Positions 1,248 through 33,940 of a stretch of 36,869 bases of DNA are shown here, piece after piece. Within the stretch, counting starts at the first letter, position 1, and each line of letters starts with the position of its first letter. The DNA comes from Gemmatimonadota bacterium. Lineage in GTDB: Bacteria > Gemmatimonadota > Gemmatimonadetes > Gemmatimonadales > GWC2-71-9. Where the stretch lies: NCBI GenBank assembly GCA_022566515.1, contig JADFIT010000017.1, forward strand, positions 1 to 36,869, read 5' to 3'. Under the pieces are notes generated by a model. It was given only the letters and a program-made list of their open reading frames with translations. It made no database searches and was not told where the DNA came from. The position numbers and the translations under genes were made by a program.

Positions 1248-1790
1248 ATGCCCTGGATCGAATGGATTGAAGAAAAGGCTGCCACCGGTCGGCTCAAGGA
1301 GAGCTACGAGCGCTACGGCACCCGACGAGGTATGGACCATATTCTCAAGATCCACTCCCTCAACCCAAGATCGCTCGAGGATCATTACCGCCTTTACGCC
1401 CACCTAATGCGGGGTCCATCGGAGCTTTCCAGGGCAGATCGAGAGATGATCGCCGTGGTCGTCTCGAAGACAAACGACTGCCTCTATTGACTGCACCACC
1501 ACGGAGCGGGCCTCCGTCAGCTGTTGAAGGACGATGATCGCACGGCCGCCATCGAGCAGGACTACCGTGAGGCACAGCTGTCGCCGCGTGAACGGGCGAT
1601 GCTCGACTACGCCGTCAAACTCACACTCACCCCCTCAGAGATGGAGCAGGCTGACGTTCGACAGCTGCGAGAGGTGGGCCTGAGCGACGCAGCAATCCTC
1701 GATGTGTGCCAGGTGACCGCCTATTACAACTATGTGAACCGCCTGGCCGAGGGGCTCGGAGTGGAGTTGGAAGACGGCGGTGAGGGGTAG
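1248..1790 (+). CDS. AhpD-like peroxidase-related selenoprotein (in-frame UGA = Sec81)
   Basis: One reading frame runs from the ATG at 1248 to the TAG at 1788-1790, interrupted only by TGA at 1488-1490. Read through, it gives a 180-residue protein of the uncharacterised peroxidase-related branch of the AhpD/carboxymuconolactone decarboxylase fold. The active site reads C78-L-Y-U81-L-H-H-H85, so the UGA falls exactly on the second cysteine of CxxC. Glu66, Cys78, Sec81 and His85 keep the spacing of Glu118, Cys130, Cys133 and His137 of mycobacterial AhpD. The C-terminal part (AYYNYVNRLAEGLGVEL) is typical of the family, so the downstream half is still under constraint. A hairpin follows the UGA, and a tRNA-Sec gene lies at 33844. 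Likely role: thiol/selenol peroxide reduction in the cytoplasm. The start lacks a clear Shine-Dalgarno. The alternative, a nonsense mutation or base-call error splitting the gene, is less likely. Confidence 0.88.
1488..1520 (+). promoter_or_regulatory. UGA codon with predicted bacterial SECIS hairpin
   Basis: The UGA is at 1488-1490. A 6-bp stem, ACGGAG (1501-1506) with CTCCGT (1512-1517), closes a 5-nt loop CGGGC. CTG (1491-1493) can pair with CAG (1518-1520) below a 7-nt bulge. The loop begins 17 nt after the UGA and has G in its second position. This fits the bacterial SECIS model, in which the SelB-binding stem-loop lies within the coding sequence just 3' of the UGA. Folding was judged by eye only. 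Confidence 0.65.
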
Positions 1791-2266: not shown

Positions 2267-3901
<1,635 letters not shown>

Positions 3902-31005: not shown

Positions 31006-31779
31006 GTGCTAGTCGATACCCATTGCCACCTTGGCGCTGACCAGTTCGACGAAGATCGGGCCGCAGTGGTGAAACGCGCTTCGGCCGCGGGTGTTGCGCA
31101 CATCATCGTGGTGGCTGATTCCGAGCCCGCCACAACAAGAGCCATCGAGCTGGCTCGGCGATTCGACCTTTCCGCCACCGCCGGGGTCCATCCCCACGAG
31201 GCATCGGCGTGGAACTCGAACGTGGCTGCCAAGATCGAGGCGGCGCTCAACAATCCCCTCGTGGTCGCCGTAGGCGAGACGGGACTCGATTACCATTATG
31301 ATCACTCACCGCGCCAGGCGCAGCGCGTGGCGTTCGCGGCCCAACTCGAGTTGGGAGAGCGACACAGCCTCCCGGTGGTAGTGCACTCGCGGTCGGCCGA
31401 CGCCGACATGGTGGCCATGCTGCGAGACACCGGCGCCAGCTACATCTTGCACTCGTTCAGTTCGGGACCGGAGGTGCTGGAAATTGCTCTTGCGGCGAAA
31501 GCATACGTGTCGTTCAGCGGCATGGTGACCTTCAACTCATGGAGCGACTCCGAGGCGGTTCGAGCCGTCCCGGCCGATCGACTTCTCGTCGAGACCGACG
31601 GGCCGTACCTTGCTCCCACACCACATCGGGGCAAACGCAACGAGCCGGCCTTCGTTCGCGAGATTGCATTGAAGGTGGCAGAAATCCGCGCGGAGAGTCC
31701 GCACGACATTGAGGAACAAACCTCGCAAAACGCTGTTGCATGTTTTGGAACCCGCATACAAGTAAAACAACCACAATGA
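31006..31779 (+). CDS. tatD: TatD-family metal-dependent DNase/deoxyribonuclease
   Basis: The 257-residue TIM-barrel protein starts at GTG. The HxH motif is in LVDTHCHL, and GVHPHEA, the metal-binding Glu in VGETGLDYHY, VVHSRSAD, ILHSFSSG and the late VETDGPYLAP follow, which is the full set of TatD metal ligands. TatD enzymes are 3'-5' exonucleases on damaged DNA or RNA. No Shine-Dalgarno is visible. Its stop overlaps the fhs ATG. Confidence 0.92.
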   Translation: MLVDTHCHLGADQFDEDRAAVVKRASAAGVAHIIVVADSEPATTRAIELARRFDLSATAGVHPHEASAWNSNVAAKIEAALNNPLVVAVGETGLDYHYDHSPRQAQRVAFAAQLELGERHSLPVVVHSRSADADMVAMLRDTGASYILHSFSSGPEVLEIALAAKAYVSFSGMVTFNSWSDSEAVRAVPADRLLVETDGPYLAPTPHRGKRNEPAFVREIALKVAEIRAESPHDIEEQTSQNAVACFGTRIQVKQPQ

Positions 31780-33452
31780 TTACAACCGTTCCGTCTGATA
31801 TTGCTATCGCCCAAGAGGCGAAGCTGCGCCCCATCACCGAAGTAGCGGGTGACCTGGGGCTCGATCCCAACGAGATCATCACCTACGGCGACAACAAGGC
31901 CAAGATCAAACTCGAGGCGATGACCTCACGCCAACGACGCGCCCGGCTGGTACTGGTCACCGGCATCAACCCGACCGCCGCCGGGGAGGGAAAGTCTACG
32001 GTAGCAGTCGGGGTCGCACAGGCGTTCAACAAGCTCGGCGAGAACGCCGTGCTGTGCATACGCGAACCCAGCCTTGGCCCCGTGTTCGGCATCAAGGGTG
32101 GCGCCGCCGGCGGCGGGTACGCCCAGGTAGTACCCATGGATGAAATCAACCTGCATTTCACCGGGGACTTCCATGCGATTTCCAGCTCGCACAACCTGCT
32201 GTCTGCGATGCTCGATAATCACCTCCACCAAGGGAATGCCCTGGGCGTAGACCAACGCCGCATCACGTGGCCCCGCACCATGGATATGAACGACCGCGCG
32301 CTGCGCAGCATCATGGTTGGACTCGGCGGCCCGCTGGGAGGGGTCCCGCGCGAGGAACGGTTCGTCATCACGCCCGCCAGCGAAATCATGGCGATCGTGG
32401 GACTGGCGCGCGATCTGGGAGACCTCGAAACCCGTCTCGGAAACATCATCGTAGGCCAAACAAGGGATCGACAACCGGTCCGTGCTCGCCAACTAAAAGC
32501 CCACGGCGCCATGACGCTCCTGTTGAAGGACGCGCTGCTGCCCAACCTGGTACAAACACTGGAGGGCGGCCCGGCTCTGGTGCACTGTGGGCCCTTCGGG
32601 AACATAGCCCACGGCTGCAATTCGCTCATCGCCACGGAGATGGCGCTGAGACTCGCCGATATCGTCGTGACAGAAGCCGGATTCGGCGCCGACCTGGGCG
32701 CCGAGAAGTTCTTCGATATCAAGTGCCGGGCGGGCGACCTACATCCTGAGGTTGCTATCATCGTCGCCACGGTGCGTGCCCTCAAGCTCCACGGCGGCGT
32801 CCCCAAGGACAAACTGACGGAACCCGATCCCGACGCCGTAGAGCGCGGCTTCGCCAACCTGCGACGGCACATCGAGAACATCGGCAAGTACGGCGTACCG
32901 GTCGTCGTGGCCCTGAACCGCTTCATCACCGATTCCGACGAAGAGTTGGAGGTCGTTCGGAGAGGCTGCGAGGCGCAAGGCGCCCGCGTCGCACGGTGCA
33001 ACGTGTGGGAGGAAGGTGGGGCTGGCGGCATCGAGCTCGCCGAAGAAGTACTGGATGTCCTGAAGACCGAGAAGTCGAACTTCGAACCCCTCTACGACGA
33101 GAAGAAACCGATCCGGGAAAAGATAGAGATAATCGCCAAAGAGATCTATGGCGCAGACGGTGTCGATTTCACTCCGATGGCTGCGCGCAAGGCCAAGCAA
33201 CTCGCCGAGTTTGGGTTGGGCGAGACGCCGGTCTGCATCGCCAAGACCCAGTATTCCTTCAGCGACGACCCGTTGCTCCTCGGAGCCCCCGAAGGATTCC
33301 GAATCACCATTCGCGACATGTATCCATCGGCCGGCGCCGGATTTGTCGTGGCGATGGCCGGAGACATCATGACGATGCCTGGTCTGGGGAAGACGCCCGC
33401 TGCCGAGAGGATGAAAATCAACGCCGACGGCGCAATCGAAGGACTATTTTAA
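31776..33452 (+). CDS. fhs: Formate--tetrahydrofolate ligase
   Basis: The start is set at ATG (31776), overlapping the tatD stop; the 12 residues before it are part of tatD in another frame. This gives 558 residues. Landmarks are TGINPTAAGEGKST (ATP loop, about residue 63), REPSLGPVFGIKGGAAGGGYAQV in segments, DINLHFTGDFHAI-type EINLHFTGDFHAI, EAGFGADLGAEKF and the C-terminal PGLGKTPAAERM. It makes 10-formyl-THF from formate, THF and ATP, feeding purine and formyl-methionine synthesis. The latter links it to initiation genes in the same cluster. Confidence 0.97.
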   Translation: MITTVPSDIAIAQEAKLRPITEVAGDLGLDPNEIITYGDNKAKIKLEAMTSRQRRARLVLVTGINPTAAGEGKSTVAVGVAQAFNKLGENAVLCIREPSLGPVFGIKGGAAGGGYAQVVPMDEINLHFTGDFHAISSSHNLLSAMLDNHLHQGNALGVDQRRITWPRTMDMNDRALRSIMVGLGGPLGGVPREERFVITPASEIMAIVGLARDLGDLETRLGNIIVGQTRDRQPVRARQLKAHGAMTLLLKDALLPNLVQTLEGGPALVHCGPFGNIAHGCNSLIATEMALRLADIVVTEAGFGADLGAEKFFDIKCRAGDLHPEVAIIVATVRALKLHGGVPKDKLTEPDPDAVERGFANLRRHIENIGKYGVPVVVALNRFITDSDEELEVVRRGCEAQGARVARCNVWEEGGAGGIELAEEVLDVLKTEKSNFEPLYDEKKPIREKIEIIAKEIYGADGVDFTPMAARKAKQLAEFGLGETPVCIAKTQYSFSDDPLLLGAPEGFRITIRDMYPSAGAGFVVAMAGDIMTMPGLGKTPAAERMKINADGAIEGLF

Positions 33453-33843: not shown

Positions 33844-33940
33844 GGGGGCGGATTTGGCCTGGTGGCTTGCACGGTCTTCAAAACCGCTGGGAGGTGCCTT
33901 CGGCGGCTCCGGTGGGTTCGATTCCCACACGCTCCCGCCA
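33844..33940 (+). tRNA. selC: tRNA-Sec (anticodon UCA)
   Basis: The 97-nt sequence has the anticodon loop CTTCAAA, with TCA at 33878-33880, flanked by CGGT/ACCG. The acceptor arm is GGGGGCG pairing with CGCTCCC, with one G-U pair; the eighth pair expected for tRNA-Sec would be G-A, a mismatch. A long variable arm GGAG...CTCC ends in GCC-TTC-GGC. The T arm is GTGGG-TTCGATT-CCCAC. CCA is encoded (33938-33940). Length, long variable arm and UCA anticodon together identify bacterial tRNA-Sec, close in size to the 95-nt E. coli selC. It begins 10 nt after ridA, so it is either co-transcribed with the preceding operon or has a promoter inside ridA. A terminator follows at 33950. Confidence 0.95.

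Follow-up and report, generated by a model that had tools for sequence, protein, structure and literature searches.

The window, a stretch of 36,869 nucleotides from an uncultured Gemmatimonadota bacterium (contig JADFIT010000017.1 of assembly GCA_022566515.1), contains a gene that we read with high confidence as an AhpD-like selenoprotein of the TIGR01926 type, in which UGA 1488 would be decoded as selenocysteine (Sec) and Cys78 and Sec81 would act together as a thiol/selenol oxidoreductase. The decoding is deduced from conserved machinery and a conserved element: the UGA is taken as Sec because the genome holds the full Sec machinery, the codon lies opposite Cys in homologues, its presence almost always goes with that of selA and tRNA-Sec, and the SECIS hairpin that follows it is conserved. 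The features are listed in Table 1.

Table 1. Features of the AhpD-like selenoprotein gene and the tRNA-Sec gene (window coordinates)
Feature	Position	Strand	Details
AhpD-like selenoprotein CDS (TIGR01926 peroxidase-related, CMD fold)	1248..1790	+	180 residues, ATG start, TAG stop; M-P/A-W-I start common to relatives
Glu66, by its spacing the counterpart of Glu118 in the AhpD proton relay	1443..1445	+	invariant in alignment; AhpD relay from PMC3141380
Cys78, partner thiol of Sec81	1479..1481	+	invariant in alignment
In-frame TGA read as Sec81, closing the C-L-Y-U redox motif (78-81)	1488..1490	+	63 distinct sequences have UGA here; homologues without Sec have Cys
His85, corresponding by spacing to His137 of AhpD; codon also the base of the SECIS stem	1500..1502	+	invariant; CAC in 56/56
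Bacterial SECIS hairpin (predicted)	1501..1517	+	6 bp stem ACGGAG/CTCCGT (1501-1506 with 1512-1517), 5 nt loop CGGGC, 16 nt from UGA to loop
tRNA-Sec, anticodon UCA at 33878-33880	33844..33936	+	Rfam RF01852, 70.5 bits

Read with the TGA as Sec, the frame begins with MPWIEWIEE and has its single internal TGA at residue 81, but translation with table 11 breaks it into 1248-1490 and 1524-1790. The protein matches Pfam CMD (E 4.5e-15) and is a member of the NCBIfam family TIGR01926, "peroxidase-related enzyme", whose match spans residues 2-173 (E 3.5e-50; 170.2 bits against a cut-off of 81.8). Two other family labels were discarded, NF041238 AhpD_rel_CFYUT at 59 bits against a cut-off of 175, and TIGR04030, likewise on score. 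An AlphaFold2 model with Cys put in for Sec (pLDDT 84) has the all-helical fold of the AhpD type; its best PDB match is 6k40, an AhpD-like protein of D. radiodurans (TM 0.84), and other AhpD-like structures match as well. E66, C78, U81 and H85 are invariant in a 21-row alignment and match Glu118, Cys130, Cys133 and His137 of AhpD in spacing. An initial annotation of the DNA had described a frame open on either side of one TGA, family sequence persisting 3' of it, the AhpD spacing of these four residues and a gene that standard stop codons would split, and all of this is borne out.

By analogy with AhpD, the mature protein would carry the Cys78-Leu-Tyr-Sec81 pair on its helical fold, and Glu66 and His85 would relay protons. 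Sec81 occupies the place of AhpD's exposed nucleophile and would most likely attack either a peroxide or a partner in its oxidised state, e.g. a peroxiredoxin; a selenenylsulfide between Sec81 and Cys78 would form and then be re-reduced by a cellular thiol system. Attack is probably the role of Sec81 and resolution that of Cys78, since in M. tuberculosis AhpD it is the second cysteine, Cys133, that is exposed and links to AhpC, the first being partly buried; the AhpD of B. thailandensis is reported to depend more on its first cysteine (PMC6626918). The initial annotation had put Sec at the resolving position of CxxC, which holds as to the second position of C-L-Y-U and fails, on the precedent of AhpD Cys133, as to the resolving role.

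On the same analogies, a peroxidase or peroxiredoxin-reductase activity is the most likely function. Loss of the AhpD-like protein makes D. radiodurans more sensitive to H2O2, and the CxxC cysteines matter there (PMC8945050). The main alternative, less probable and still to be taken seriously, is a true selenoprotein that catalyses some other reaction of the CMD/AhpD fold, being neither a peroxidase nor an AhpC reductase. This would suit a subfamily without an assigned reaction such as TIGR01926, a fold that also covers the debrominase Bmp8 and sestrin domains, and a set of conserved neighbours (an NlpC/P60 gene and groESL) that includes no peroxiredoxin gene; it sits less well with relay residues that are all invariant, and with the nature of the nearest solved relatives, which are proteins of the AhpD type or putative antioxidant ones, a peroxide-sensitivity phenotype being known for one.

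Relatives of the same genus, and some members of the family, share the gene order NlpC/P60 gene - AhpD-like gene - groES - groEL. Upstream of groES (1929-2246) and groEL (2267-3901), positions 1849-1875 hold a CIRCE-like inverted repeat, CTAGCACTC-N9-GAGTGCTAG, with two mismatches to the consensus, and this sequence suggests control of groESL by HrcA through a CIRCE-like operator. The tRNA-Sec gene lies 32 kb from the AhpD-like gene, and the two are found on one contig, 33-41 kb apart, in four relatives (G127, G189, G023 and G051). We dropped the idea of tRNA-Sec as an operon partner; the separation in these relatives represents a conserved long-range gene order.

The genome to which the window belongs is a fragmented metagenome-assembled genome (MAG) of 241 contigs (3.59 Mb, 95% complete) and possesses the full set of SelA, SelB, SelD and tRNA-Sec. 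Its selA match reaches 505 bits. selB is in two pieces: contig C240 ends in its N-terminal part, and its C-terminal part is matched on contig C198, as would fit a contig break. selD, on contig C170, has one in-frame TGA, and its product, selenophosphate synthetase, is probably a selenoprotein itself. The tRNA-Sec gene follows a formate-tetrahydrofolate ligase gene (31740-33452); it was detected by Rfam and overlooked by ARAGORN, which reported no tRNA. The initial annotation had placed a tRNA-Sec gene in the window and had proposed a search of the genome for selA, selB and selD: the tRNA is there, as are all three genes, selB being split.

The closest named relatives are Gemmatimonadota MAGs. 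Homologues at E 1e-20 or better occur in 53 of the 201 genomes of the order, nearly all with one TGA, and homologues at E 1e-40 or better in 143 of 395 sampled genomes of the phylum, mostly in the UGA form; about 70% of these 395 genomes have selA. Of the homologues collected, 63 distinct ones carry the UGA and 13 carry Cys, and the UGA is always the codon that holds Cys in the other forms. Over the last 63 codons, comparison with a relative of the same genus (L022) gives dN 0.15 and dS 1.25. By this comparison of sequences the half 3' of the UGA is under purifying selection, and a decayed 3' half is excluded. Such selection and the recurrence of the UGA in so many genomes go far beyond what chance would give. 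Cys homologues at the UGA position and a UGA kept in close relatives, both of which the initial annotation had suggested looking for, are therefore present, and the degraded 3' half that it had named as contrary evidence was not seen in this comparison. One relative (L027) has a second, non-conserved in-frame TGA near the N terminus, at match residue 22, which is either an assembly error or real.

The form of the enzyme follows the machinery. Among the matches listed for the phylum, selA is found in 99 of 103 UGA-form genomes vs one of 12 Cys-form genomes (Fisher p 2e-11, a value that ignores relatedness). The remaining four UGA-form genomes, of 86-90% completeness, gave no selA match, and each has tRNA-Sec. 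tRNA-Sec is missing from all 12 Cys-form genomes, G371 among them; its selA match, the only one in this set, is perhaps due to contamination or to a Sec trait that was lost recently. On the protein tree, which is short and weakly resolved, the UGA and Cys labels take three changes and eleven Cys rows form one clade among Sec rows, so that the exchange likely ran from Sec to Cys. Lineages without Sec machinery carry the enzyme with Cys at site 81. We lean, by a modest degree, towards the wider reading that Sec-AhpD is old and widespread in Gemmatimonadota, switches to Cys upon loss of selA and tRNA-Sec, and retains Sec in related groups with displaced or compensated hairpins.

The predicted hairpin would recruit SelB with Sec-tRNA(UCA), so that Sec is inserted at the UGA. 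Published limits for bacterial SECIS elements are a loop of 3-9 nt, a stem of 4-16 bp, G in the first two loop positions, a distance of 16-37 nt from the UGA and an energy of -7.5 kcal/mol or lower (PMC13188914). With a loop of 5, a stem of 6, G at loop position 2 and a spacing of 16, the hairpin of the window lies within the structural limits, and its energy is borderline at -7.5: -6.9 kcal/mol for the bare 17 nt, -7.5 to -7.6 with short flanks and up to -12.3 with flanks. No unusual stability was found, as the 45-50 nt that follow the UGA, folded freely, favour another structure and shuffled sequences fold equally well. Stability alone fails to single out the hairpin, and the case for a SECIS element therefore rests on codon conservation and on pairing across homologues.

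The hairpin covers the codons CAC GGA GCG GGC CTC CGT (residues 85-90), and the main group, which counts 56 UGA sequences, has them almost fixed. Arg90 is encoded by CGT in 53 of 56, against 10% expected from codon use elsewhere in the same genes (p 2e-49); Leu89 is CTC in 55 of 56, Ala87 is GCG in all 53 sequences having Ala, His85 is CAC throughout, and Gly86 is GGA or GGG only, a purine opposite U. Codons beyond residues 85-90 are mostly without comparable bias. Stem pairs are formed in 333 of 336 cases (99%) in this group, and in about half or less when the partner strand is slid. In a sister group of three sequences 18 of 18 pairs form, one G-C being turned into C-G on both sides. The Cys forms make the hairpin pairs in 45%, although they are a different amino-acid subfamily and the contrast is not purely synonymous. 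Relative to L022, dS is lower in the first 29 codons 3' of the UGA than upstream (0.82 vs 2.36), which fits a hairpin that restrains silent sites as well. A third group of four sequences, termed AHAHDL, lacks the hairpin of the window; three of its members have instead a predicted stem of 7 bp, with a loop of 6 nt, some 7 nt further 3'. This group includes a divergent paralogue in the same genome as the window (L102; G000 contig C43, 12240-15791), which also has a UGA, in the motif C-R-Y-U.

Reassignment of UGA, or leaky readthrough, to an ordinary amino acid without Sec would be compatible with a frame open through the TGA, taken alone, but we consider it very improbable: the UGA is found only at the Cys site of homologues, together with selA and tRNA-Sec, and with the conserved hairpin after it. 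A general reassignment is rejected, as TGA still serves as the stop codon of ordinary genes of the window, e.g. at 1172 (NlpC/P60 gene) and 2246 (groES). A pseudogene or assembly error, in which the TGA would be a real premature stop, or a TGC/TGT called wrongly, and the full-length protein would not be made, might be suspected from the split standard annotation and the 241-contig assembly, but is scarcely credible and in effect refuted by the identical TGA and the downstream frame kept in many independent assemblies throughout the phylum, by purifying selection on the 3' half and by the freezing of the codons directly after the TGA into a hairpin.

The gene is better read as a Sec-encoding one, and an apparent pseudogene becomes a conserved selenoenzyme. 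Annotation with standard stops would halve this redox enzyme across much of Gemmatimonadota, since more than a third of the sampled genomes carry the family, mostly in the UGA form, and most have selA. The matched Sec and Cys forms offer a ready test of what Sec gives to an AhpD-type enzyme. If Sec-AhpD is indeed old and widespread, with displaced or compensated hairpins, it would provide a natural series for SECIS evolution and for the exchange of Sec and Cys.

AhpD-like CxxU selenoproteins were first reported, from the Sargasso Sea, in 2005 (PMC1088965), and a 2026 review has the entry "AhpD-like protein, TIGR01926, CxxU" (PMC13188914). Sec use in Gemmatimonadota seems little described; no description of the TIGR01926 CxxU family or of selenoproteins in this phylum was found in the open-licence literature. 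The initial annotation had regarded AhpD-like selenoproteins as known and the peroxidase-related branch as an extension of them: the family has been known since 2005 and its range is extended into Gemmatimonadota, but the TIGR01926 CxxU type was already listed in the review. What is new here, by the open-licence literature, is the members and their phylum-wide distribution in Gemmatimonadota, the selenoprotein family itself being on record.

With the recorded AhpD-like selenoproteins (COG2128/TIGR01926, CxxU; PMC1088965, PMC2398784, PMC13188914) the present members have in common the NCBIfam subfamily TIGR01926, Sec as the second redox residue and a bacterial SECIS right after the UGA, and they differ in belonging to Gemmatimonadota. 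NF041238 AhpD_rel_CFYUT and other AhpD-fold selenoproteins share the AhpD fold and CxxU, the window protein scoring well below the NF041238 cut-off. M. tuberculosis AhpD, which works with AhpC, DlaT and Lpd, shares the active-site spacing Glu-x11-Cys-x2-Cys-x3-His, but is distant (structural match 1lw1 at E 0.041 only) and has Cys133 instead of Sec. The Cys proteins of known structure, 6k40 (D. radiodurans), 2pfx, 3c1l, 2oyo and 2prr, agree with the window protein in fold and family (E 1e-36 to 1e-45, TM 0.77-0.84) and differ in having Cys at the Sec position.
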